DNA of 10,670 nucleotides from Desulfonatronospira sp. Lineage in GTDB: Bacteria; Desulfobacterota; Desulfovibrionia; Desulfovibrionales; Desulfonatronovibrionaceae. A model generated the notes under the pieces. That model saw nothing but the letters and a program-made list of their open reading frames with translations, was not told the origin of the DNA and did not search any database. The DNA lies in NCBI GenBank assembly GCA_003563255.1, contig PWSL01000255.1, positions 1 through 10,670 of the forward strand, in the 5' to 3' direction. The first letter of the stretch is position 1. Every line of letters begins with the position of its first letter. The translations under genes and the position numbers were made by a program. Shown in pieces: positions 8-10,670 of the stretch.

Positions 8-91
8 GGGGACAGGCACCCCCGCACTTATTTTTATTGAAAATGATCTTGGTTTTATTGGAAAAAATAAGTGCGGGGAGAGCCAGTCCCC
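8..91 (+). repeat. REP-like hairpin element, type 1 (3' of atpB)
   Basis: Long inverted repeat. Arm GGGGACAGGCAC (8-19) pairs with GAGCCAGTCCCC (80-91) except for A14-A85 and A18-A81 mismatches. After a one-base bulge (A79) a perfect 16-bp inner stem follows (20-35 with 63-78, starting CCCCGCACTT). The apical loop of about 27 nt is AT-rich. It lies just after the atpB stop, so on the atp transcript it would fold between atpB and whatever follows, expected to be atpE. There is no U-run immediately after the stem on the minus strand, so it is not a typical intrinsic terminator; an mRNA-processing or stability role is inference. The arms match those of the other elements in the window. Confidence 0.85.
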
Positions 92-124
92 GGAGGTAAA
101 TAAATAAGTTTCGCTGTAGTGTTA
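92..124 (+). repeat. conserved flanking box of hairpin element 8-91
   Basis: Sequence directly after the GAGCC arm. It begins CGGAGGT and ends CGCTGTAGTGTTA. The reverse complement of 1793-1825 matches it closely (CGGAGGT, AAGTT, CGCTGTAGTGTTAA), and the core CGCTGTAGTG recurs at 4827-4836. Its outer end coincides with the atpB stop codon (TAA, minus strand, 122-124). It therefore seems to be part of the repeat element rather than ordinary spacer. Confidence 0.65.
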
Positions 125-802
125 GTGTGCCTCTTCAAAGGCCTCTTTGAGATACATCATGGTCAACATGAAGAAAACAAAGGCCTGAATGGTCTTAAGA
201 AGTAAAAAGAGTATGAATATGGGCAAGGAACCAAGTATAGGAGCCAGGATAAACATTACGGCTATGGTGATCTCCTCGGCTCTGATATTTCCAAACAAAC
301 GCAGTGCCAGTGAGAGCGGCCGTGCCAGGTGGCTGACAATCTCAATGGGTAGCATTATAGGCGCAAACCACCAGTAGGGCCCCATGAACTTCTTGATATA
401 CTTGGCACCATGAATCCTGATGCCCCAGTAATTATAGTAAACAAAAACAAACAGGGCCATGCACGCAGTAGTGTTGATGTTGGCGGTGGCGGCGTCAATA
501 CTGGGTACCAGCCCGGAAATATTGAGCACCCAGATATAGATGAGCAGGGTGAAAAGCACCGGAAAAACCTTTCTGCCCGGCTCTCCCATGTTGGCAACCA
601 CGAAGTCCTCGATAGCCTTGATCAGGAATTCAAAAAAATTCTGCACTCCCCTGGGCACCAGGGTCATCCTGCGGGTGGCCATCCAGCCCACCAGGACCAG
701 GATGACGATGAAAAACCAGGAATAGAGGACATGCTGCGGGATGTTCAGCCCCAGGGCCTGAAAAAATTCTCTTAAAAACATCCATTGATATAAGTCTTCC
801 AT
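122..802 (-). CDS. atpB: F0F1 ATP synthase subunit a
   Basis: Membrane stator subunit of F0 that forms the two ion half-channels against the c-ring. The product is 226 aa, at the short end of the family range. It is very hydrophobic, with about five membrane segments (roughly residues 28-44, 80-99, 113-127, 145-190, 192-218). The hallmark ALRLFGN carries the essential arginine, R168, equivalent to E. coli R210. E177 falls at the E. coli E219 position and Q206 in the last helix matches Q252. The start is well supported: a full Shine-Dalgarno AAGGAGG (minus strand, core 811-815) lies 8 nt upstream, inside the last codons of atpI, with only 3 bp between the genes, so translational coupling is likely. 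Proton or sodium specificity cannot be read from this subunit. The stop codon abuts the repeat box at 92-124. Family assignment is secure. Confidence 0.97.
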   Translation of the reverse strand: MEDLYQWMFLREFFQALGLNIPQHVLYSWFFIVILVLVGWMATRRMTLVPRGVQNFFEFLIKAIEDFVVANMGEPGRKVFPVLFTLLIYIWVLNISGLVPSIDAATANINTTACMALFVFVYYNYWGIRIHGAKYIKKFMGPYWWFAPIMLPIEIVSHLARPLSLALRLFGNIRAEEITIAVMFILAPILGSLPIFILFLLLKTIQAFVFFMLTMMYLKEAFEEAH

Positions 803-805
803 TGA

Positions 806-1216
806 TTAAGCCTCCTTGAATTTTTGACCGACCAGGGTTATGCCGAAAATAAAAACATTCAACAGTATAATACTCAGCCCAATAAGCAGGGCGAATATAT
901 TTGCGTTCCAGAACACTATGGCCACGTACAGAATGATTCCGGTGACTATAAGCCGGGTGTAAAAGCTGAACAGAAGAGGAATCGTGGCACCCTTGGGGAT
1001 ATATACCAGTTCCTGGGCCAGCCTGGCCAGGAAATAAAAATTGAAGCTTCCCACCGCCGCCCCTATGACAAAGCCGATTATCCAGGGAAGAGGAAAAAAC
1101 AGGATGAACACAATTGTCCCCAGGACCGAGAGATAAAGCTGATTGCGCACCAGAAAGCGCACCTTTGGGAGCACAAGGCCCCGTTTGTAAAGAAAATTCT
1201 CAACCCAGACGTTCAT
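806..1216 (-). CDS. atpI: ATP synthase subunit I (AtpI)
   Basis: Small membrane protein of the ATP-synt_I family. In other bacteria it helps assemble or stabilise the c-ring; here that role is inferred from family and position. The 136-aa product starts MNVWVENFLYKRG and has four membrane helices at about 27-42, 44-63, 80-101 and 105-129. R88 lies in the third helix (FYTRLIVTG). The frame is open further upstream to 1315, but the extra 33 residues are basic and overlap atpZ coding sequence. The ATG at 1216 has an AGGA ribosome site (1222-1225) and fits the usual family length, so I chose it. It overlaps the end of atpZ by 17 bp and is followed after 3 bp by atpB, giving a coupled atpZ-atpI-atpB unit. 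Members of this family are poorly conserved, so the call rests on topology and context as well as sequence. Confidence 0.88.
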   Translation of the reverse strand: MNVWVENFLYKRGLVLPKVRFLVRNQLYLSVLGTIVFILFFPLPWIIGFVIGAAVGSFNFYFLARLAQELVYIPKGATIPLLFSFYTRLIVTGIILYVAIVFWNANIFALLIGLSIILLNVFIFGITLVGQKFKEA

Positions 1217-1466
1217 CTTCTTCCTGTTCCTTTTTTTTCTCGGTCTCCTGAATCTTTTTGACTTCCACGTACATGTTTTTAAAACCGGCTGCAATCCCAA
1301 AAAGCAGGAAGGCAAGCAGAAACCAGGGCTCTGTGCCCAGCCATCTGTCCAGAAAATAACCTATGAGCAAACCTACGAAAGTGCAGGTAACCAGGTGAAT
1401 CCCCAGCAGGGATGCCTTCCAGTAACCTTCTCCCATGCCGGATTTTTTTTTGGATCTAAATATCAT
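1200..1466 (-). CDS. atpZ: AtpZ/AtpI-family F0F1 ATPase accessory subunit
   Basis: 88-aa protein of the AtpZ (ATPase_gene1) family, usually encoded as the first gene of F0 operons. It has two membrane helices (about 20-40 and 47-64) joined by the family pattern G36-x3-D40...G44-T-x-P-W. A basic N-terminus (RSKKK) precedes them, and a highly charged C-terminal tail (KKIQETEKKKEQEEDE) follows. Family members have been linked to c-ring assembly and, in Bacillus, to divalent-cation supply for the ATPase; function here is inferred. The ATG at 1466 has only a distant GGAG (1478-1481, 11 nt away). The alternative M11 has no better site and would drop the basic N-terminus. The 3' end overlaps atpI by 17 bp. 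It is the first gene of the cluster, with about 760 bp of non-coding DNA upstream. Confidence 0.85.
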   Translation of the reverse strand: MIFRSKKKSGMGEGYWKASLLGIHLVTCTFVGLLIGYFLDRWLGTEPWFLLAFLLFGIAAGFKNMYVEVKKIQETEKKKEQEEDERLG

Positions 1467-1521
1467 ACCGCCAGAATCTCCGCCTGATGCACTGAATCGT
1501 TCATTCGTTCACAATGACCTC

Positions 1522-1551
1522 TTACTAGCATATGATTTGAGGATACGTCAA
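1522..1551 (-). promoter_or_regulatory. possible promoter for atpZ-atpI-atpB
   Basis: On the minus strand a TTGACG hexamer (1546-1551) is followed, after an 18-bp spacer, by TAGTAA (1522-1527) with a TG one base upstream, an extended -10 arrangement. It lies 56 bp from the atpZ start and points the right way. The -10 is weak (three of six matches to TATAAT), so this is a candidate only. Confidence 0.3.
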
Positions 1552-1608
1552 TGTAATATTTTGCACTATCTATTTTTTTCTAAGATTTTTTCACCCTCCT
1601 CCCTGTGA

Positions 1609-1653
1609 CCCCCTGCTACAGGGGGCTGCCTTGCAAAAAGGCCTGGCCCTGAC
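1609..1653. other. GC-rich hairpins with a competing fold
   Basis: CCCCCTG (1609-1615) and CAGGGGG (1619-1625) form a perfect 7-bp stem with a CTA loop. Next to it GCCTT (1628-1632) pairs with AAGGC (1638-1642). A competing fold pairs CAGGG (1619-1623) with CCCTG (1647-1651) around the second hairpin. No T-run follows on either strand, so it is not an intrinsic terminator. It lies upstream of the proposed atpZ promoter, so it would only be in that mRNA if transcription starts farther out. Confidence 0.45.
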
Positions 1654-1675
1654 TATACATGTCGTTGACCGCTTC

Positions 1676-1724
1676 ACACAACTGCGGAACTTTTCCATAA
1701 ATCTCCGGGGACCGTCTCTCCCCG
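1676..1724 (-). repeat. collapsed copy of the hairpin element with its flanking box
   Basis: The stretch 1676-1706 (CACAACTGCGGAACTT...CTCC) aligns with the box at 1797-1825, sharing GCGGAACTT and CTCCGGGGAC at nearly the same spacing (10 versus 9 nt between). It is followed by GGGGACCGTCTC (1707-1718), a degenerate GGGGACTGGCTC arm, and then directly by TCCCC. The long inner stem and loop are missing, leaving only a 6-bp stem CGGGGA/TCCCCG (1706-1711 with 1719-1724). A T7 run begins 6 nt further on (1731-1737), so weak plus-strand termination is possible but unproven. Confidence 0.55.
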
Positions 1725-1776
1725 AACTGATTTTTTTCAGATATCCTGGAGCCTTTCTGTCATCTGGAGAGTGAAA

Positions 1777-1791
1777 AATTATCAGATAATT
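1777..1791. promoter_or_regulatory. 15-bp AT-rich palindrome, possible operator
   Basis: AATTATC-A-GATAATT is a perfect 7-bp inverted repeat around one central base. It overlaps the -35 hexamer of the candidate promoter at 1790-1817. Size and symmetry suit a dimeric helix-turn-helix regulator, but no regulator is encoded in the window and the site occurs once, so function is inference. Confidence 0.35.
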
Positions 1792-1817
1792 GTTAACACT
1801 ACAGCGGAACTTATAAT
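1790..1817 (+). promoter_or_regulatory. possible promoter for the Lon-like protease gene
   Basis: TTGTTA (1790-1795), a 16-bp spacer and a consensus TATAAT (1812-1817) face the protease gene. A start near 1824 would put transcription at the first base of the hairpin array, giving a leader of about 410 nt with three long hairpins. The hexamers fall within the conserved flanking box of the element. In the box at 92-124 the corresponding -10 is TTATTTATTT instead of TTATAATTG, so the promoter quality is special to this copy. Confidence 0.35.
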
Positions 1818-1825
1818 TGACCTCC
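1797..1825 (-). repeat. conserved flanking box of the tandem hairpin array
   Basis: Read on the minus strand this follows the GAGCCAGTCCCC arm of the first array copy and runs CGGAGGT...AAGTTCCGCTGTAGTG. It matches 92-121 with few differences and the degenerate copy at 1676-1706. Only the outermost array copy has the box; copies two and three are preceded by the 31-bp linker instead. Confidence 0.65.
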
Positions 1826-1917
1826 GGGGACTGGCTCTTCCGGGACCCGCCTGCCCAGAAAATGAGTCATATTGAGCACAAAATGATGCTCAAGCGGGTC
1901 CCGGAGTGCCTGTCCCC
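1826..1917 (-). repeat. REP-like hairpin element, type 2, array copy 1
   Basis: 92-bp element in the opposite orientation to 8-91. GGGGACTGGCTC (1826-1837) pairs with GTGCCTGTCCCC (1906-1917) apart from T1832-T1911 and T1836-T1907. Then CCGGGACCCGC (1840-1850) pairs perfectly with 1894-1904, with one extra T as a bulge. Inside is a second perfect 7-bp hairpin, TTGAGCA/TGCTCAA (1872-1878 with 1887-1893), loop CAAAATGA, stacked directly on the outer stem. Confidence 0.88.
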
Positions 1918-1948
1918 TGCTTTCCTTAAAAACGCTAAACTGTGGCAC

Positions 1949-2041
1949 GGGGACTGGCTCTTCCGGGACCCGCCTGTCCCAGCAAATGAGTCATGTTGAG
2001 CACAAAATAATGCTCAAGCGGGTCCCGGAGTGCCTGTCCCC
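1949..2041 (-). repeat. REP-like hairpin element, type 2, array copy 2 (divergent loop)
   Basis: Outer arms and inner stems are identical to copy one. Four changes are confined to unpaired sequence: an inserted T (CTGTCCC for CTGCCC), CAGCAAA for CAGAAAA, TCATGTT for TCATATT, and AAAATAAT for AAAATGAT in the innermost loop. TTGAGCA (1996-2002) and TGCTCAA (2011-2017) remain perfectly paired. Confidence 0.88.
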
Positions 2042-2072
2042 TGCTTTCCTTAAAAACACTAAACTGTGGCAC

Positions 2073-2164
2073 GGGGACTGGCTCTTCCGGGACCCGCCTG
2101 CCCAGAAAATGAGTCATATTGAGCACAAAATGATGCTCAAGCGGGTCCCGGAGTGCCTGTCCCC
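2073..2164 (-). repeat. REP-like hairpin element, type 2, array copy 3
   Basis: Identical over all 92 bp to the copy at 1826-1917, with the inner hairpin at 2119-2125 and 2134-2140. It lies 68 bp upstream of the protease start codon, so it would fold in the leader of that mRNA. The remaining spacer (2188-2232) is A-rich with two AGATAA motifs and ends in the AGAGGG ribosome site. Confidence 0.88.
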
Positions 2165-2232
2165 TGCTTTCCTTAAAAACGCTAAACAGATAACACAGAT
2201 AAAAAAAACATCAAGTATTTCCAGAGGGATAT

Positions 2233-4650
2233 ATGACCAAAAAACACATGGTGCCGGCATCCAGGCTCTGCGTCAGGCTTGCATCCTCAAAAATACCCTT
2301 CAGTCACACCGGAGGGACCGCCGCCCGGAGGCATAAGGAGCAGGTATTCCAGCAAAGGGCCTTTGATGCCATGGAACTGGCCGTATCCATCAAGCGCCCT
2401 GGCTACAACGTCTACCTCTCAGGAGAACAGGGCCTGGGCCGCAACCAGTTCATACTGGACTTTCTGGGCCCCAGGGCCGCAAAAATGCCCACTCCAGGCG
2501 ACTGGATATACGTCAACAATCTTCAGGACCCAGACAATCCCCTTGCCATCAGCCTGCCCCCCGGCAGCGCCAGGGATTTTCGCCGGGAATTGCAGACTGC
2601 GGTCAAAAAAATCCGCGAATCCATTCCCGCCGGCTTTGAGCAGGATTTTTATATCCGCAAGCACGGCGATCTTATCAAGGAATACAACGAGACCCGGGAA
2701 AACCTGCTTTCCCGAATGGAGCACAAGGCCCACAAAAGCGGGTTCAGTTTAAGCGTAGACGAGAACGGTTCCCTCAGCCTGTATCCCCTGGTGGAAGGCA
2801 AGGCCATGGACCCGGAAGAATTTGAAAAGCTGGGTCCGGAGGTCAAAAAAGACCTGATGCAGCAGAGCAACCGCATCATGGAGGCCCTGCTGGGCCTTTC
2901 CAGGCAGATAAGCAGAAAAGAGCAGGACCTTAAGGAAAACGAACGTAAACTGGACCAGGAGGTGGCCGGCTCCAGAATTGACGCCTGCCTCAAAAAAATT
3001 CGACAGAAATACGCCGACTACCCCAGGCTCATGGAGTACATGGACAACATCAAGCAGGATCTTTTGGAGAATGTGGAGCATTTCAAGCCCAGAGAACAGC
3101 CTTCAGAAGGTTCCGTTGAACAGCAGTCGGCCGGACAGGATGTATGCCTTTCCCGTTACGGGGTGAATATCCTGGTGGAACATTCCCCCCACAAGGGAGC
3201 ACCTGTTCTGGTGGAGGACAATCCCAATTACTTCAATCTGCTGGGCTGTATTGAACGTGAAACAGAGATGGGGGCCTATTATACCGATTTCACCCTTATC
3301 AAAGCCGGGAGCCTGCATAAGGCCAATGGCGGCTTCCTGATCATCAGGGCAGAGGACATCCTCTCCCAGCCTCAGGCCTGGGAAGGCCTCCTGCGCTGCC
3401 TGCGCTCCGGCAGGGCCGAGATAGACGACCCGGCGGACCAGTATGAAATGGTGCGCACCAGAACCATCCGCCCTGAGACCATCGGCCTGGATATCAAGAT
3501 TATCCTTTTGGGGTCGGATGAAATGTACGAACTGCTGCTGGAAGCGGACGAAAGATTCGGCAAGCTTTTCAAAATCAAAGCCCACTTGAGGGAAAGCATC
3601 TCCAGGACCCCGGCGACCATTAAAAACCACAGCCTGGTGCTGGCCGGCATAGCCCGCAACAATTCCCTGAGCCATTTCACCCGGGAGGCCGTGGCCGCCC
3701 TGGTGGATCACTCCTCGCGCCTGGCCGGGGATCAGCAGAAGCTTTCTCTGAAGTACTCTCATCTGGCGGATCTCATGATGGAAGCCGACGCTTTCGCCCG
3801 CATCAACGGCGGAGACAAAGTTGAGGCGGACTCTGTTTACAGAGCCCTTGAGGCCCGCAAGTACCGCCTGAACCTCTACGAAGACGAATTCTTGTCCGAA
3901 TACGAGCGAGAGGCCATCAGGGTCCAGACCAAAGGTTATGCTGTGGGCCGGGCCAACGGGCTCTCGGTGAGCATGTACGGGGACTACATCCTGGCCCTGC
4001 CCCACCAGATCTCCTGCACCACCGGTGTGGGACACGGCGGAATAATGGATCTGGAGCGCGAGGCCGAACTGGGGGGACCGATACATACCAAGGGCATGAT
4101 GATCATCAAGGGCTACCTGCAGAACCTGTTCGCCCAGGACAAGCCCCTGGTCTTATCCGGCAGCCTCTGCTTCGAGCAGAGCTACGCCCACATCGACGGG
4201 GATTCAGCCTCCGGGGCCGAACTGGCGGCACTGCTCTCGGCCCTGTCCGGAGTACCCATAAACCTGTCCCACGCCTTTACCGGTGCCATCAGCCAGTCCG
4301 GGGCCGTAATGGCGGTGGGCGAGGTCACCCGCAAGATCGAGGGATATTTTGAGCTCTGCAGGCGCAAGGGGTTGACAGGTGAACAGGGCGTCATAATCCC
4401 CAGAGATAATCTGGCCCACCTTATGCTGAGTGAAGAGGTCATTCAGGCTGTCAGGCAAAACATGTTTCACGTGCATGCCGTCCTGCATATAGAAGAAGCC
4501 ATGGAAATCCTCACCGGGGTCCGGGCCGGTAAAAAGCTGACCAACGGTAAATTTTCACCTGGATCCATCTACCGCCTGGCCGACGAGAGCCTGCAGCATC
4601 TGGCCCACCTGGCGGACAAAAAGGTCCCCGGAAAAAGGCGAAAGAAATAA
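2233..4650 (+). CDS. Lon-like ATP-dependent serine protease (AAA_32 / S16 family)
   Basis: 805 aa, cytoplasmic, of the Lon-related putative protease family, normal length for the group; predicted to degrade proteins at the cost of ATP. Residues 1-80 hold a degenerate P-loop, GEQGLGRN (64-71), with Arg where Lys is usual. A helical insertion (about 120-300) probably forms a coiled-coil or substrate-entry domain. ANGGFLIIRAEDIL (364-377) is the Walker B region, and LLGSDEMY (425-432) plus ERFGKLFK (440-447) resemble sensor-1 and arginine-finger regions. The C-terminal S16 domain has the catalytic Ser658 in GDSASG and Lys701 in EVTRKIEG, 43 residues apart as in archaeal LonB. No membrane segment is seen, unlike archaeal LonB. 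The first ATG is chosen for the AGAGGG site 4 nt upstream and the family-like start MTKKHMVPASRL. It is a single gene with a long hairpin-rich leader, convergent with the RND gene. Substrates are unknown. Confidence 0.93.
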   Translation: MTKKHMVPASRLCVRLASSKIPFSHTGGTAARRHKEQVFQQRAFDAMELAVSIKRPGYNVYLSGEQGLGRNQFILDFLGPRAAKMPTPGDWIYVNNLQDPDNPLAISLPPGSARDFRRELQTAVKKIRESIPAGFEQDFYIRKHGDLIKEYNETRENLLSRMEHKAHKSGFSLSVDENGSLSLYPLVEGKAMDPEEFEKLGPEVKKDLMQQSNRIMEALLGLSRQISRKEQDLKENERKLDQEVAGSRIDACLKKIRQKYADYPRLMEYMDNIKQDLLENVEHFKPREQPSEGSVEQQSAGQDVCLSRYGVNILVEHSPHKGAPVLVEDNPNYFNLLGCIERETEMGAYYTDFTLIKAGSLHKANGGFLIIRAEDILSQPQAWEGLLRCLRSGRAEIDDPADQYEMVRTRTIRPETIGLDIKIILLGSDEMYELLLEADERFGKLFKIKAHLRESISRTPATIKNHSLVLAGIARNNSLSHFTREAVAALVDHSSRLAGDQQKLSLKYSHLADLMMEADAFARINGGDKVEADSVYRALEARKYRLNLYEDEFLSEYEREAIRVQTKGYAVGRANGLSVSMYGDYILALPHQISCTTGVGHGGIMDLEREAELGGPIHTKGMMIIKGYLQNLFAQDKPLVLSGSLCFEQSYAHIDGDSASGAELAALLSALSGVPINLSHAFTGAISQSGAVMAVGEVTRKIEGYFELCRRKGLTGEQGVIIPRDNLAHLMLSEEVIQAVRQNMFHVHAVLHIEEAMEILTGVRAGKKLTNGKFSPGSIYRLADESLQHLAHLADKKVPGKRRKK

Positions 4651-4739
4651 AAGGCTTGGCCTGTTCTGAGTATCGGTTACTTCATCTGGTAAGGATCTGT
4701 CACGATATAAGTGTTATATTTGTCTTATAAGGACAAGCC
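4651..4739. other. 3' region of the protease gene, small AT-rich hairpins
   Basis: No gene is seen. ATATAA-GTG-TTATAT (4705-4719) and TTGTC/GACAA around TTATAA (4720-4736) are small inverted repeats just before the next hairpin element. AGGC-TTG-GCCT just after the stop codon is too short and lacks a T-run, so no clear intrinsic terminator is visible for the protease gene. Confidence 0.4.
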
Positions 4740-4810
4740 GGGGACAGGCACTTTTGCCGAACTCAAACCGTAAAATGGCTGGGCTCTCGGCGGCAAAAGA
4801 GCCAGTCCCC
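4740..4810 (+). repeat. REP-like hairpin element, type 3 (convergent intergenic)
   Basis: GGGGACAGGCAC (4740-4751) pairs with GAGCCAGTCCCC (4799-4810) with the same two A-A mismatches as the element at 8-91. The inner stem here is TTTTGCCG/CGGCAAAA (4752-4759 with 4791-4798), unrelated to the other types, and the loop is 31 nt. It lies between the 3' ends of the protease (plus) and RND (minus) genes and could shield both mRNAs, which is inference. Confidence 0.85.
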
Positions 4811-4840
4811 TTCTAGTTCAAAATGTCGCTGTAGTGACAG
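4811..4840 (+). repeat. diverged flanking box of hairpin element 4740-4810
   Basis: Follows the GAGCC arm, as the box does at 92-124. Only the core CGCTGTAGTG (4827-4836) is exact. The inner half (TTCTAGTTCAAAATGT) lacks CGGAGGT and has diverged. Distance from arm to core is 16 nt, against 20 nt in the element at 8-91. Confidence 0.5.
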
Positions 4841-4879
4841 TAAGACTGTAAAATAGATTTTTTGCTGTCGCATCATTAC

Positions 4880-7800
4880 TTATTGCTCCACCCTCATTTC
4901 TATCCTGAAAAACAGGGCATACAGCACAGGTGCCACCAGAAGGGTCAAGACCGTGGCAAAGGTCAGGCCGCAGATAATGGCTATGGCCATGGACAACCAG
5001 AAAATATCTAATAAAAGCGGGGTCATGCCCATTACAGTGGACAGAGTGGCCATCATAACCGGCCGGAGCCTGCTGACGCTGGCATCGATGAGTCCCTGGT
5101 AGGGTTCCTGCCCTGAATCCAGGTTGGTATCTATGCGGTCCAGAAGGACCACCACGTTTTTAATCAGCATGCCTGACAGGCTCAGGGTACCCAGAAGGGC
5201 CATAAATCCAAAGGGCTGACTTGTAGCCAGAAGTCCCAGGGTGACTCCTATCATTGCCAGGGGCAGGACCATGGCGATTATCAGCGGCTGACGCAGGGTG
5301 CTGAAAAGCCCCACCACTGCCAGGGACATCAGCAGAAAACTAAATGGCACCCCGGACATGACTTCCCTTTGGGAGTCCCTGGATTTCTCGTATTCCCCTC
5401 CCCACTGCATCCTGTACCCCGGGGGAAGCTCAATGGCCTCGATATCGCTTCGGATGCGCTCCATCAGGGCCTGACCACCTCCTGTATCCGCCTCGCACTG
5501 GGCAGTGATGGTCTTCTGCCTGTCGCGTCTTATGATCACCCCGTCTTCCCAGACCAGGCCCGCCCCGGAGACCACCTGCCCCAGGGGGGTGCCCCTGGTT
5601 TCCTGCATAGCCCGGACATCCAGGGCAAAGATATCCTCCAGGCGTTTTCTGGACTCTTCGGGTGGACGCAGGATTACTGGCAGCATCCGGTCCCCTTCCC
5701 GGTAAAGTCCCACCTGGAGTCCGTCAAAATTGAGCTTCACCGCCCTGGCGGTATCCTCCCGGGTCACACCATAGCGGATTCCCCTGGACTGAGAGTATTC
5801 CAGCCTCTGGGTCTTGACCATCTGACGCCAGTCGCTGCGCACTTCCCTGGAATCATGGTCCCTGTTCATGATTTCCTCGGCCTGGCGGGCCAGGTCCCGC
5901 AAGATATGCGCCTCGGGGCCGCTGAAGCGCACCTCCACGGAAAACTCCACCGGCGGCCCCATGGGAAACTTGCGTACTCTGGGCTGGGCATAAGGATAAT
6001 GCTTTTCCAGATAGTCCCGGACAAACCCTTTGACTTCATCCAGGTCCGAAGCCCGGTACAGGTTGATCACCACCTGCCCGAAAGCCGGATTGGCCATCTT
6101 GGGCTCCATGGCCAGGTAAAACCTGGGAGCGCCTTCCCCGATAAAGGAAGTGACGCTCTGTACACCGGGATGTTCCTGGATATCCTTTTCCAGCTCTTTC
6201 AAATCCTGCGAGGTGGACTCTATGCGTGATCCCTCAGGCAGCCAGTAGTCAAGTTTCAGCTGAGGTCTGGTTGATGGCGGGAAAAAGGTCTTGTCCACAA
6301 AATGAAACCCGATTAAAGCCAGTACGAAAAGCAGGGCCATGCCGGCCAGGAGACTTTTTTTCCTGCGCATGCAGCCATGCAGGAGCCTGCGGTAAAACCT
6401 GTACATCCTGCCGGCATAAGGGTCTTCCAGGACCAGCCCTTCTTTTTTGCCCCGGCCCAGAAACATGTGGCACCAGAGCGGTGTCAGGGTCATGGCCAGT
6501 ATCCAGCTGGACAGAAGGGAAATCGCTATCACCAGGAAAAGCCCCCGGGTGTACTCTCCGGTATCGTCTCCAGCCAGCACTATGGGCATGAATGCAAAAA
6601 CCGCCACCAGGGTGGCTCCAAGAAGGGGCCACCCGGTTTCCCGGACGCTCTCCACTGCTGCCTGCAGCCTGTTGGTCCCGGTCTGGATTTTTACCAGCAT
6701 GTTCTCGGTGACCACTATGGCATTATCCACGATCATTCCCAGGGAAATGATCAATGCCCCCAGGGAGACCCTGTCCATGTCCATGTCCAGGGCCAGCATC
6801 AGGGTAAAGGTCACCAGGATTGTCAAAAGCAGGCCGCTGCCGATGATAAGACCGCTCCTGATGCCCATGAATATCAGGAGCAGCAGTATAACAATGGTCA
6901 CCGCCTGCAAAAGGTTCAGCATAAAGGTGTTTATCGCCTCGGTGACTTTATCTGCCTGAAAGGCCACGAAATGGGCCTGGACCCCCACCGGCAGCCTGTT
7001 TTGCAGTTCCTGCAGGGTGTCCTGGACCTCCTGGCCCATGTGCACTACGTTGCCCCCGGACACGGTGGAGACGCCGATGGCCAGGGCCTTCTGTCCGTCA
7101 TGGCGGATAAGGCTGGCAGGAGGATCCTGATAGCCCCGGCGGACCTCGGCGATATCTCCCAGGTGGATCATGCTCTCCATTTCAGGGTGAGAAGCATACC
7201 CCAGCACCAGGTCCGAGATGTCCTGCACCGATTCAAACTCCCCTCCCAGGACAAAACGCACCCGCTCCCTGCCCAGGTCCGCTCCTCCAGCATCTGCGGC
7301 CATGCTGCTGCTTTCCATGAGGGCCAGGACCTGGTTCATGGAAAGTCCCAGTTCGGCCAGGCGCGAACGGGATATATCCACAAAAACAGTTTCCTGCTGC
7401 TCCCCCCATATCTCCACCCTGGCCACCTCATCAGCCAGAAGCAGTTCTTTCTGGATTATCTCGGCATAGTCCAGCAGTTCTCTATAGGTATAGTCCTGTC
7501 CTGTCAGGGCGATGAGCACCCCGTATACATCCCCGAAATCATCAATAATCTCCGGGTCGCCGGCTCCCGGGGGCAGCTTGGGACGGACGTCGGCAATCCT
7601 GTGCCTGAGGCGGTCCCAATGCTGCGGGACCTCTTTTGCAGGGATGTCTTCTTTCATGTGCACGTGGGTAATGGAAACCCCCGGGCGGGATTCGGTCTGG
7701 ACGTAATCCAGCTGGTCCATGCGCATGACCGCTTTTTCAATGCGGTCTGAGACCTCGTTTTCAACCTCAGTAGGGGAGGCACCGGGATAGGGAGTGATTA

Positions 7801-7939
7801 TTACCGCTGTTTTGATGGTGAATTCAGGATCTTCCAGCTTGCCCATGCTGAAGTAGGCAATCACGCCGGAGATAGTCAGCACCAGGGTAAGAAAGAGAAA
7901 AAAACTCTTTTTTTGAATGGCCAGTTCTGCAATATTCAT
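4880..7939 (-). CDS. RND-family efflux transporter permease (AcrB-like inner membrane pump)
   Basis: 1019 aa, full length for an RND pump that exports substrates by proton antiport through a trimer in the inner membrane. Two halves are visible. TM1 is at about 12-30, a periplasmic porter loop spans 31-335, and TM2-6 cover about 336-490. After a cytoplasmic link, TM7 is at about 529-547, a second periplasmic loop spans 548-860, and TM8-12 run to 1012. In TM4 the motif GMIVDNAIVV has D405 but N406 where AcrB has the pair D407-D408. K927 (SGMLIKNVVVLLDR) matches AcrB K940, and SRLRPVMMATL (956-966) is the usual TM11 entry. The start MNIAELAIQKK is typical, yet no Shine-Dalgarno is visible in the 20-bp gap after the adaptor gene, so expression may depend on coupling. 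It is the last gene of the TolC-adaptor-pump operon. Substrate is not predictable; it looks like a drug or solvent type rather than heavy-metal CusA. Confidence 0.95.
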   Translation of the reverse strand: MNIAELAIQKKSFFLFLTLVLTISGVIAYFSMGKLEDPEFTIKTAVIITPYPGASPTEVENEVSDRIEKAVMRMDQLDYVQTESRPGVSITHVHMKEDIPAKEVPQHWDRLRHRIADVRPKLPPGAGDPEIIDDFGDVYGVLIALTGQDYTYRELLDYAEIIQKELLLADEVARVEIWGEQQETVFVDISRSRLAELGLSMNQVLALMESSSMAADAGGADLGRERVRFVLGGEFESVQDISDLVLGYASHPEMESMIHLGDIAEVRRGYQDPPASLIRHDGQKALAIGVSTVSGGNVVHMGQEVQDTLQELQNRLPVGVQAHFVAFQADKVTEAINTFMLNLLQAVTIVILLLLIFMGIRSGLIIGSGLLLTILVTFTLMLALDMDMDRVSLGALIISLGMIVDNAIVVTENMLVKIQTGTNRLQAAVESVRETGWPLLGATLVAVFAFMPIVLAGDDTGEYTRGLFLVIAISLLSSWILAMTLTPLWCHMFLGRGKKEGLVLEDPYAGRMYRFYRRLLHGCMRRKKSLLAGMALLFVLALIGFHFVDKTFFPPSTRPQLKLDYWLPEGSRIESTSQDLKELEKDIQEHPGVQSVTSFIGEGAPRFYLAMEPKMANPAFGQVVINLYRASDLDEVKGFVRDYLEKHYPYAQPRVRKFPMGPPVEFSVEVRFSGPEAHILRDLARQAEEIMNRDHDSREVRSDWRQMVKTQRLEYSQSRGIRYGVTREDTARAVKLNFDGLQVGLYREGDRMLPVILRPPEESRKRLEDIFALDVRAMQETRGTPLGQVVSGAGLVWEDGVIIRRDRQKTITAQCEADTGGGQALMERIRSDIEAIELPPGYRMQWGGEYEKSRDSQREVMSGVPFSFLLMSLAVVGLFSTLRQPLIIAMVLPLAMIGVTLGLLATSQPFGFMALLGTLSLSGMLIKNVVVLLDRIDTNLDSGQEPYQGLIDASVSRLRPVMMATLSTVMGMTPLLLDIFWLSMAIAIICGLTFATVLTLLVAPVLYALFFRIEMRVEQ

Positions 7940-7959
7940 GATTGGATGGCAGGCGGGGA

Positions 7960-9216
7960 TTATTCCAGAGGTCTTACTTTCTGATCTTCATGAACGAAAT
8001 GGGCCCCGGCAGTCACCACCAGGTCCCCGGGGCCGAGACCGGAAAGCACCTGCACCCCGGAGGAACCCAGCTCCCCGGTGCGCACATCCCTGGACTGCAC
8101 CCTGGAAGTCCCGGGATCATAAACCCATACCCGGTCTTTGCCCCCGTTGCCTGGAATAAGGGCTGTCTCGGGGATGAATACCAGGAAATCCTCGTCCGGT
8201 CCGGGGGCGGCAAGGCTGATATGCACCTGGGCGGCCATTGAGGGCAGAGCCAGGATATCATCCGGCACCACCAGCATTGCTGTTGCTGAATAACTTAATT
8301 GCCTGGCATCGGTAGAGACCTCCTTTAAACTGGCCGGTAGAGGAAATCCCGGGTAAGCATCCAGGACGCAGAAGATTTGGGTGATGTCCTGTTTGCGCAC
8401 AACCATCTGTTCCGGCAGGCCGAACTCCACTTCCAGCCGGGTCAGGTCCTGCAGGGTGACTACCGGCTGGCCTGCTGAAATGTTTTCATGGTTTTCAACG
8501 TGTTTTTCTGCAATGTAACCTGCAAAAGGAGCCCGCAGCACTGAGTCCTCCAGGGCGCTTATGGCCTCTTCCAGGGCCGCCTCCAGGGAGTCTATCCTGG
8601 ACTCCATGGCCTGAATGTCCTCGTCCCTGGCCCCTGTCAGCGCCTTTTGAAGCTCCATTTCCAGGTGTCTCTTATGACCCAGGGCTTCATCCAGGGCGGT
8701 CTCGGCCTGGTCCAGTTCCGCCCTGGCCACAGCTCCCTGCTGATAAAGATCTTTATGCCGGCTGTACTGCAGCCTGCGCTCTCTGACCGCGGAACTGGCG
8801 GCCTCAAGCTCAGCCTCCAGTGATACGACATCCTCGGTCCTGGCTCCTTGCTGCATGGCTTTCAGGTTAGCCACGGCTTCCCCCAGGCTGCCCTGAAGAT
8901 TTTGAACCTCCAGCCTGAAGTCCCTGGGATCCAGCCTGGCCATAACCTGGCCCTGCTCCACGAATTCTCCTTTATCCACTTTCAGGGTCTGCAACTGGTT
9001 GGAAACCCTGAAGGAAACCCGGGTTTCACGGTGCGGCCGGACCTTGCCCGGAAATACCCGTTGAAGGCCGGGAGCAGGCTCACTGACCTGCATAAGTTTT
9101 ACCGGCCTGAACTGTTCCCGGGGCTTTTCCTCTTCCTGCACCGCACACCCGCAGCCCCAACAGGCTATGAAAAAAATCAGGAATGTAGTGCATAGGGGCA
9201 CAGCCCATCTAAGCAT
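7960..9216 (-). CDS. RND efflux periplasmic adaptor (membrane fusion protein, HlyD/AcrA family)
   Basis: 418 aa, bridges the RND pump and the outer-membrane channel. The N-terminal hydrophobic stretch (5-19) ends in a Cys-rich FIACWGCGC. This looks like a lipoprotein signal, with C19, C22 or C24 as candidate lipidated cysteine, so it is probably anchored to the inner membrane. The first lipoyl half is at about 72-98 (KVDKGEFVEQGQVMARLDP). A long alpha-helical hairpin spans 100-225, with the repeated motif GAR-x-ED in both strands (124-129, 195-200). The second lipoyl half is at 227-257 (LRAPFAGYIAEKHV), then beta-barrel and membrane-proximal domains to the end. The start has AGGAG at 9226-9230, 9 nt upstream. 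It is separated from the upstream TolC-like gene by 112 bp and from the pump by 20 bp. The hairpin is longer than in minimal adaptors, in keeping with docking to a TolC-like partner. Confidence 0.93.
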   Translation of the reverse strand: MLRWAVPLCTTFLIFFIACWGCGCAVQEEEKPREQFRPVKLMQVSEPAPGLQRVFPGKVRPHRETRVSFRVSNQLQTLKVDKGEFVEQGQVMARLDPRDFRLEVQNLQGSLGEAVANLKAMQQGARTEDVVSLEAELEAASSAVRERRLQYSRHKDLYQQGAVARAELDQAETALDEALGHKRHLEMELQKALTGARDEDIQAMESRIDSLEAALEEAISALEDSVLRAPFAGYIAEKHVENHENISAGQPVVTLQDLTRLEVEFGLPEQMVVRKQDITQIFCVLDAYPGFPLPASLKEVSTDARQLSYSATAMLVVPDDILALPSMAAQVHISLAAPGPDEDFLVFIPETALIPGNGGKDRVWVYDPGTSRVQSRDVRTGELGSSGVQVLSGLGPGDLVVTAGAHFVHEDQKVRPLE

Positions 9217-9328
9217 CTAAAGCCTCTCCTTAAAATATGTGATTTCTGAATTAATTACTGCGGGTCAACACTGCAGCACCCCGCAACAACCGTAGTCCAG
9301 GCGGAGCGCAACAGGCGGCCTGCTGAAA
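9217..9328. other. spacer between the TolC-like and adaptor genes
   Basis: 112 bp without a gene. TGCGGG (9259-9264) and CCCGCA (9280-9285) form a 6-bp stem around a loop containing CTGCAG. On the minus strand it is followed by GTAATTAATT rather than a T-run, so it is a poor terminator and more likely lets transcription continue into the adaptor gene. The adaptor ribosome site is inside this spacer. Confidence 0.35.
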
Positions 9329-10670
9329 TCAGTTGGCATTCAGGCCGATATTCTTTTCTCCCATGGCCCGGTAGATGGAGGCCACGGCCTTTAGAAAATC
9401 GGATTCAGCGCTGATAAGCCTGGCCTCGGCTGCAGTCAGGTTGGCCTGGGCATCCAGTACATCGGTACTTGTCCCCACCTGGGCCTCGTACCTGGCCTGG
9501 GCCATGCGGTAACTCTCCCTGGCCTCCTCCAGTCCCTGCCTGGCAACCTTGATTCTCTGGCGGCTTTCCTGGATGAGCAGATAATCGGACTTGACTTCAA
9601 AAGAGACTTGCAGCAGCAGGTCCTCGTACTCGGAAACCAGTTGCCTGGTCTGCTGCCTGGCCTCTTCCCGGGCGTAATATGTCCTGCCCCATTCAAACAG
9701 TTTCCACTGCATCTGCACTCCGGCCCTCCACTCGCTTCTGTCCTGCATGGCAGAGCCGCTTACAGTGGGGTCGTCCCCGCGGCGGAAGATATCAAAGCTG
9801 GCCCCCACGTGGGGGTACATGTCACTGGCGGTAATGCGCTTGTCCTTGAGGGCCATCTGGATGCTCTTGTCGGCGATGATGATATCGGGTCGGTTTTGCA
9901 GGGCCTTGTCCCTGGACTGTTCCAGGTCCAAAGTATAAGGCACAAACTCCAGACGGCCTTCGTATTCGACCTCTTTATACCGGGGCAGCCCCAGCAGCAT
10001 GTCCAGCCTGGATTCCAGTGTATCCACCTGGTTCCGGGAGGAAATCAGGTCCTGCTCGGCCTCGGAAACGTCCACCTGGGCCTGCAGCACTTCCAGTTTT
10101 GGAGCCAGGCCCACATCATAAAAAGACCGGCTCACGTCCAGGTGGGAATTAAGCCTGGCCAGCGAATCCTCTGCCACCCGGACATTTTCCCGGGCTGCGA
10201 GCAAATCCAGAAATGAGGTCTGGATCTCCAGGATAAGATCCAGTTCTGCACGGCTTAACTGGGACTTGGACTGCTCATGGGCCAGTCTGGCCTTTTCGAA
10301 GTTGCTTAGCAGGCTGAACCCTGTAAAAAGAGGCTGGTGCACGTTGATGTTCAGTTCCCAAACGTCACGGCTGCCATGCCTGGTATCACGTTCTATCCTG
10401 CCGGTATCGGGATCGAAACCCTCAGGGACCTGAGTCGAGGGTCTGTCATCCAGCCTGGTATAGCCATAAGAGGTGCTCAGGCTTGGACCGAATGCGCCTC
10501 TGGCCGATTTTGTACCGTATTCCCGGCCCTTGACCTGTTCTCTCACGGCCTGCAGGGACTGGTTGCGCTCCAGGCCCATCCTGACTGCTTCTTCCAGGTT
10601 TAAAACCGTTGGGCCTTCAGCCCGGGCGTTACCCACAGGTAAAGACACCAACATAACCATAATCATAATC
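9329..10670 (-). CDS. TolC-family outer membrane efflux protein (5' end at window edge)
   Basis: Outer-membrane channel partner of the RND system; two OEP repeats can be seen in about 445 residues. Numbering from the ATG at 10666, residues 1-16 are a hydrophobic stretch ending ARA before EGPTV, a standard signal peptidase I site. OEP repeat one covers about 20-225 (start LNLEEAVRMGLERN, beta-strand segments SLSTSYGYTRLDD and VHQPLFTGFS, then long helices). Repeat two covers about 235-440 (VGASFDIFRRGDD, MQWKLFEWGRTYY, then helices). No lipobox Cys, so TolC-like rather than OprM/NodT-like. The visible ATGs lack the basic residues expected at the start of a signal peptide and the frame stays open to the edge, so the true start is probably beyond 10670. 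First visible gene of the operon; its promoter is outside the window. Confidence 0.93.
   Translation of the reverse strand, partial: IMIMVMLVSLPVGNARAEGPTVLNLEEAVRMGLERNQSLQAVREQVKGREYGTKSARGAFGPSLSTSYGYTRLDDRPSTQVPEGFDPDTGRIERDTRHGSRDVWELNINVHQPLFTGFSLLSNFEKARLAHEQSKSQLSRAELDLILEIQTSFLDLLAARENVRVAEDSLARLNSHLDVSRSFYDVGLAPKLEVLQAQVDVSEAEQDLISSRNQVDTLESRLDMLLGLPRYKEVEYEGRLEFVPYTLDLEQSRDKALQNRPDIIIADKSIQMALKDKRITASDMYPHVGASFDIFRRGDDPTVSGSAMQDRSEWRAGVQMQWKLFEWGRTYYAREEARQQTRQLVSEYEDLLLQVSFEVKSDYLLIQESRQRIKVARQGLEEARESYRMAQARYEAQVGTSTDVLDAQANLTAAEARLISAESDFLKAVASIYRAMGEKNIGLNAN

Follow-up and report, generated by a model that had tools for sequence, protein, structure and literature searches.

A hairpin with two fixed arm mismatches and exchangeable interiors, carried within two families of miniature inverted-repeat transposable elements in Desulfonatronospira

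Repetitive extragenic palindromes (REPs) have been called species-specific (PMC2817692, in the part available), and those of subclass 2.2 are described as long stems with mispairs. For subclasses 2.1 and 2.3 of the REP-associated tyrosine transposases (RAYTs), a 2018 survey found no REP-like sequence, as far as its accessible text goes (PMC6006769). REP oligonucleotides have been reported, in the available sections of one study, as near-palindromic with T-T pairs (PMC7709200). The terminal inverted repeats (TIRs) of RAYT-like (TIRYT) genes are GGGGWSAS inverted repeats, some of which occur in repeat families, as dimers or in self-complementary form, according to the accessible portion of Di Nocera et al. 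2013 (PMC3733652). Here we describe a hairpin that occurs five times in a 10,670-nt stretch of Desulfonatronospira sp. DNA (the window, meaning that whole stretch), in which arm A (GGGGACAGGCAC) and arm B (GAGCCAGTCCCC) enclose a variable interior; arms and interior together are called the core. We give a probability of roughly 0.58 to the reading that the core is a REP-type hairpin signal, putatively read by a RAYT, which is carried within two families of miniature inverted-repeat transposable elements (MITEs), K1 and K2, and whose interiors are exchanged between the outer shells of these elements.

We first established how abundant the arms are and whether their mismatches are retained. Exact arm A was found at 549 sites in the 3.52-Mb host genome, compared to a single site for the reversed-pattern control. 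Cores were catalogued in a 449,615-base sample of this genome, allowing at most two mismatches per arm, and 115 paired cores were obtained. When restricted to the 98 cores with no more than one mismatch per arm, 87 had exactly A/A facing B/B, three were A-A', two were B-B', and six carried another change. In the window, it was noted that the arms pair over 12 bp and are open just at positions 7 and 11 (A-A, or T-T on the other strand), as a first-pass annotation of this DNA had claimed, and single-strand folding concurred (folding z of -7.26, -8.12 and -3.96 for the three interior types). The inner stem was paired at 7 or 8 of 8 positions in 90/115 cores (shuffled interiors, 0.1%). Copies thus numbered far more than ten, the mismatches were retained, and most interiors were self-complementary, so that none of the observations named in advance as damaging to the annotation was encountered. 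Its description of the interiors as perfectly paired held for most cores; in 6/115, a CCCCAAACC variant breaks the original inner stem, which indicates that a folded interior is not absolutely required.

High copy number, extragenic position and hairpin folding are general marks of REPs, and all three were found in the core. Only 7/115 cores lay within open reading frames (ORFs) of at least 150 aa, compared to a mean of 73.8 and a minimum of 60 for random positions. The bases preceding arm A were mostly AGCA, AATT or CACC, and a GTAG/CGTC foot was found neither in the host cores nor, by eye, in the listed cores from other phyla. A REPIN comprises two whole inverted REPs; here the arms are inverted and unequal, and a single 12-nt arm forms no hairpin. 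Another palindromic repeat was also abundant in the host genome (L040 1961, L049 962 and 6469, L050 3545, and others): GGGGACWGTCCCC, with CCGAGGACCCCCTGAATGGTTAC frequently coming after it. Two sets of unpaired arm-like sites in the core catalogue (33 and 28) represent two forms of this repeat.

The flanks of the cores were found to sort into classes. K1 shells have GTATCTGTTTAGC ends, span GTATCTGTTTAGCG to its reverse complement, and are bordered by an 8-bp target duplication; K2 shells have CACTACAGCGA ends, span CACTACAGCGA to its reverse complement, and are bordered by a 4-bp duplication. Convergent end pairs in the sample gave unit sizes of 136-164 bp for 21/27 K1 units and 139-167 bp for 30/34 K2 units. 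In the host genome, a 4-bp repeat stood directly outside 18/28 K2 units (shuffled mean 3.7, maximum 10) and an 8-bp repeat directly outside 5/20 K1 units (shuffled mean 0.24, maximum 3). Perfect duplications were found in related genomes for 12/18 K1 units (8 bp) and 15/20 K2 units (4 bp), with shuffled means of 0.63 and 3.5, respectively. Nested insertions provided three comparisons in which the filled site was longer than the empty one by exactly 8, 8 and 4 bases. The units have terminal inverted repeats, target duplications and no coding capacity, as is required of MITEs, and these duplications together with the filled and empty sites indicate that K1 and K2 are MITEs of at least two kinds. 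The annotation had placed the ends of the mobile unit at the arms; in this genus the unit instead ends about 26-54 bp farther out, at inverted repeats followed by the 8-bp or 4-bp duplications.

Y1/HUH transposition is not known to leave 8-bp or 4-bp target duplications, so most present copies in the genus were probably spread by DDE-type transposition. IS200/IS605-type single-stranded DNA elements are not known to produce a target duplication, and K1 and K2 units differ from them in this respect. No enzyme moving the K1 or K2 shells was found. An IS4-family transposase ORF that ends inside a K1 half (C270; L037 3769-4854) was considered as the autonomous parent of K1 and was rejected: homologue matches stop at residues 332-342 of 361, and the remainder of the ORF is element sequence that has become joined to the gene. 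Its final ~20 residues and stop codon are supplied by the K1 half element. Two longer K1-ended elements in genome G010 (L176, 717 bp; L177, 514 bp) contained no evident transposase when ORFs of at least 30 aa were inspected by eye. Two K2 elements lacking a core were encountered in genome G006 (L173, 61 bp, with a TTAT duplication; L174, 57 bp), and these look like secondary losses rather than empty MITEs awaiting core insertion. One and the same 31-nt insert, close to CTCCGGGCTGTATGCCTCCGGGCAGGAAGCC, was observed between core and right shell in different shells, both in the host genome (L046 429, L052 1465) and in its relatives (L127 9746, L132 683, L178-L181, L191).

We then examined how interiors are distributed among shells. 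The two shell halves agreed in 72/77 cores with both halves classed, a count that leaves out the 38/115 cores with an unclassified side. I1 interiors were found with O1 (16), O2 (12) and O3 (2) flanks, and I3 interiors with O3 (11) and O2 (5), in addition to I2 interiors with O1 (16) and an I1 variant with O2 (5). Interior classes therefore cross shells, which indicates that interiors move as units between fixed arms. Inversion of the loop was considered as the chief source of interior change and was rejected, with only 5/92 assigned loops inverted; three of these five lay in elements with palindromic arms, in which orientation is undefined, and two in elements with mismatched arms. The first-pass annotation had attributed interiors that change and stay palindromic to selection on folding or to a copying mechanism. 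In the host genome we instead found a few modules recombined with shells rather than palindromes newly made on each occasion, although paired changes were seen in Desulfoscipio, as described below.

The arm pair was encountered far beyond the genus. A genome-collection scan for arm A, 42-72 bases and arm B matched at least 89 stretches. Among the listed matches, the isolates were Geomonas, Desulfoscipio, Diplocloster and Singulisphaera (Thermodesulfobacteriota, Bacillota and Planctomycetota), and there were many metagenome-assembled genomes (MAGs), mostly of planctomycetes. Single MAGs labelled Terriglobia, Armatimonadetes, Prevotellaceae, Actinomycetota, Nealsonbacteria and others were also listed, although MAG bins may be contaminated. 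Two Actinomycetota MAG contigs (L198, L202) bear the shells and interiors of the host genus, which suggests mis-binning or transfer. The mismatched arm pair was also observed on two viral contigs (L360, L361). Across 19 genomes, 16 of which were selected for holding the mismatched pair, that pair gave 1312 matches, and the palindromic combinations A-A' and B-B' were found at 20 and 22 places. In the three genomes chosen otherwise, the counts were 343 compared to 7 and 12. These are exact-match counts in which some mismatched-pair matches span neighbouring elements, as do 5/10 A-A' and 7/8 B-B' places in G065 and all three in G061.

Interiors from beyond the genus were diverse, with 46 distinct six-base starts among 84, and paired at 72% of their first eight positions (shuffled 42%); the outer flanks also paired, at 57% of 111 (shuffled 43%, maximum 49%). 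Interior pairs in Desulfoscipio were found to co-vary (15 cells compared to 4.0 when shuffled; 0/500 shuffles), with two of five measures not clearly above shuffles (pairs changed on both sides, 32/500; pair types, 427/500) and a close covariation score for a +3 slide (0.088 vs 0.105). In a phylum sample, 7/395 genomes had matches, and the listed cores of Geomonas and the six other genomes were bare hairpins of 29-30 nt. We also examined 32 elements of a Rhodopirellula (planctomycete) MAG, with five or six elements in each shell test. Its shell GGCATGGTTCAAAAAAC (n = 6) was bordered by an 8-bp duplication matching at 38/48 bases (shuffled mean 19.4, with at least one of 1000 shuffles equal to the observed value). 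Shell GAGGCCCTAACAAAAC (n = 5) had four perfect 3-bp repeats; the 3-bp target hardly varies, so these count for little. A third shell of this MAG showed no clear duplication. The presence of cores inside other shells in this MAG indicates that nesting in MITE-like shells is probably not peculiar to the host genus.

We assessed the RAYT genes as candidate readers of the arms. The host genome contained four Y1_Tnp matches, including a 312-aa protein on C270 that scored above the Pfam cut-off and, at a score under its cut-off, matched the NCBI model for REP-associated transposases. A long stretch separates its HUH and Y regions, which is at most a lead towards TnpAREP subclass 2.1 or 2.3, the marks of which are subclass-specific core insertions or a C-terminal HTH. 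The annotation had proposed a search for a Y1 gene with these arms on either side, and beside this RAYT a half element alone was found. Across 61 genomes, the top three by matches to this protein (14, 39 and 39 pieces) were among the four with at least 20 exact arms. All 18 RAYT leaders examined from G006, G010 and G000 contained GGGACAG 85-101 nt ahead of the ORF, in upstream sequence that differs by eye save between neighbouring or tandem copies; GGGACAG is the core of the motif, GGGGWSAS, that others have described at TIRYT ends. Tandem or clustered RAYT copies, several with in-frame stops, were also observed in G006 (L114, L113). In Geomonas paludis, an exact hairpin lies one base past the stop codon of a RAYT gene (L290) and another ~65 nt ahead of its start. 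A second Geomonas RAYT (L303) and a Rhodopirellula RAYT (L321) are flanked by the element farther off, and ~0.9 kb from a Terriglobia RAYT there is an element whose arms carry one mismatch each. The interpretation given in the annotation gained from the wide conservation of the arm pair, its GGGGWSAS start, the RAYT leaders and some flanked genes, and did not hold for the mobile units, which have target duplications. Recognition of the arms by RAYTs is a likely prediction from these sequences, with RAYTs as the best candidate for the reading enzyme.

Taken together, GGGGACAGGCAC-interior-GAGCCAGTCCCC would constitute a REP-type hairpin signal. A Y1/HUH protein of the RAYT/TIRYT kind most likely reads its 24 arm bases, including the two fixed A-A mismatches, on single-stranded DNA. 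The arms behave like a signal for an enzyme that distinguishes strands, being fixed in sequence and mismatched with an irrelevant closing interior; the interior would merely need to close the hairpin and would be free to vary. In the genus, where it now moves chiefly within MITEs, the signal may have become the centre of the two unrelated families K1 and K2. DDE-type transposases supplied in trans would spread these in double-stranded form, with the 8-bp and 4-bp duplications as the result. Because the same arms are present on every copy, recombination or gene conversion delimited by the arms could transfer an intact interior from one shell to another as a cassette, which would keep it palindromic. 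A broader proposal, which we regard as tentative and rather doubtful, is that one branch of RAYTs uses the arms as a near-universal docking site, that the arms are the unrecognised REP of subclasses without one, and that RAYT nicking actively swaps cassettes between unrelated MITEs, so that in several phyla a single modular element would serve both HUH and DDE systems.

Several observations weigh against the RAYT-read signal in MITE shells. Three further comparisons of filled and empty sites, in which the gaps measured 7, 11 and 13, gave ambiguous results, and in G006 neither exact-pattern matching nor inspection by eye revealed an autonomous element bearing the ends of K1 or K2. Genome G015 holds 40 arms with one weak RAYT match, and G012, G018, G020, G025, G027, G029 and G045 hold 8-18 more distant RAYT matches with zero or one exact arm. 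Among 51 distinct RAYT loci in 16 other genomes, an exact element was found within ~1.5 kb per side at three, and 47 had no element nearby, either exact or with one mismatch per arm; single arm-like motifs lie near two of these 47. The orientation of the element relative to the flanked RAYT genes was also inconstant. A rival reading is that these are plain MITEs, in which the core is the conserved inside of DDE-type elements, the arms are read by the MITE transposases and RAYTs are uninvolved. Nearly all complete units seen are shell plus core with target duplications, and the cores of the planctomycete MAG are also in shells. However, the same 24 arm bases are found in shells that differ in ends and duplication length, the hairpins of Geomonas and the six other phylum-sample genomes are bare, and coreless K2 elements have target duplications (two cases, one matching at 3/4 bases), and we consider this explanation unlikely.

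A decidedly improbable alternative is that MITEs spread a hairpin that is retained for the structure it forms in transcripts, such as a terminator or a stabiliser of mRNA, or because a host factor binds it on the chromosome. The intergenic position and strong folding of the cores agree with this, yet such a position is equally expected of any tolerated insert, and the range is patchy across the phylum sample with copy number exploding in single genomes. Slightly less probable still is that interiors are palindromes rewritten when replication forks switch templates. The CCCCAAACC variant can pair with AGGTTT of its own loop, so template switching may write new interior sequence in such cases, and the rare A-A' and B-B' elements resemble arm copying. 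On the other hand, host interiors are a few discrete modules, inverted loops are scarce, and frequent copying would erase the arm mismatches, yet both are kept.

Within the window, all five hairpins were present where the first-pass annotation had placed them (Table 1). The 16-bp inner stem ascribed to every interior type was recovered for the first type and not for the others, and the CCCCGCACTT and CCGGGACC types have additional unpaired bases between arm B and the inner stem. The three central cores form an array (1826-2164) with a K2 half at its left and a K1 half at its right, and their A-to-B direction is on the minus strand. A decayed relative of the element was observed at 1676-1739, which is 78% complementary to 59-122. 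The genes of 122-10666 encode ATP synthase a and I chains, a small F0F1-linked protein, a LonB/LonC-like protease, and an RND efflux set (AcrB-type, HlyD-type, OEP).

Table 1. Positions of the cores and shell halves in the window.
Position	Strand	Feature	Basis
8..91	+	Core 1: arm A, CCCCGCACTT-type interior, arm B	sequence, folding
92..121	+	K2 right shell half, end CGCTGTAGTG; left half lost at contig start, leaving bases 1-7 alone	
1797..1825	+	K2 shell half (CACTACAGCGG...GACCTCC), left end of triple array	
1826..1917	-	Core 2, CCGGGACC-type interior	
1918..1948	-	Linker of two shortened K1 shell halves	read by eye
1949..2041	-	Core 3, CCGGGACC-type interior	sequence, folding
2042..2072	-	Linker of two shortened K1 shell halves	read by eye
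2073..2164	-	Core 4, CCGGGACC-type interior	
2165..2193	-	K1 shell half (TGCTTTCCTTAAAAACGCTAAACAGATAA), right end of array; final base off K1 consensus	
4740..4810	+	Core 5, TTTTGCCG-type interior	sequence, folding
4811..4836	+	K2 right shell half, end TCGCTGTAGTG; left half diverged	

We found no published description of the arm sequences in the open-licence literature, and an earlier account elsewhere is possible. In comparison to the TIRs of TIRYT genes, arm A starts GGGGACAG and fits GGGGWSAS, whereas arm B read from its end is GGGGACTG and misfits at position 7; a fixed mismatched pair, interior modules and MITE shells are not among the TIR features reported in the accessible portion of that work (PMC3733652). 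Similar to REPs, REPINs and RAYTs as described in the available parts of the literature (PMC2817692, PMC3116915, PMC6006769), the cores are high-copy extragenic hairpins and some RAYT genes are flanked by the same element. Unlike REPs, they have no GTAG/CGTC foot, their arms are constant between phyla, and target duplications surround larger units. The REP oligonucleotides with T-T pairs have two consecutive central pairs in an 18-mer duplex, as far as the available text describes them (PMC7709200), whereas here two separate mismatches occupy fixed arm positions. As with bacterial MITEs, going by the accessible sections of the cited source, the units are short, lack coding capacity, and have terminal inverted repeats and target duplications (PMC3733652); in contrast to them, one REP-like core is common to two shell families with different ends.

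The constancy of 24 bases and two mismatches between phyla, around which interior and surroundings vary, contrasts with the species-specific REPs. The fixed arms make RAYT specificity testable with one oligonucleotide pair, mismatched compared to repaired, and they are a candidate REP for the RAYT subclasses reported without any. Finally, the nesting of one REP-type signal inside more than one kind of MITE would offer a route by which parts are exchanged across transposition chemistries.

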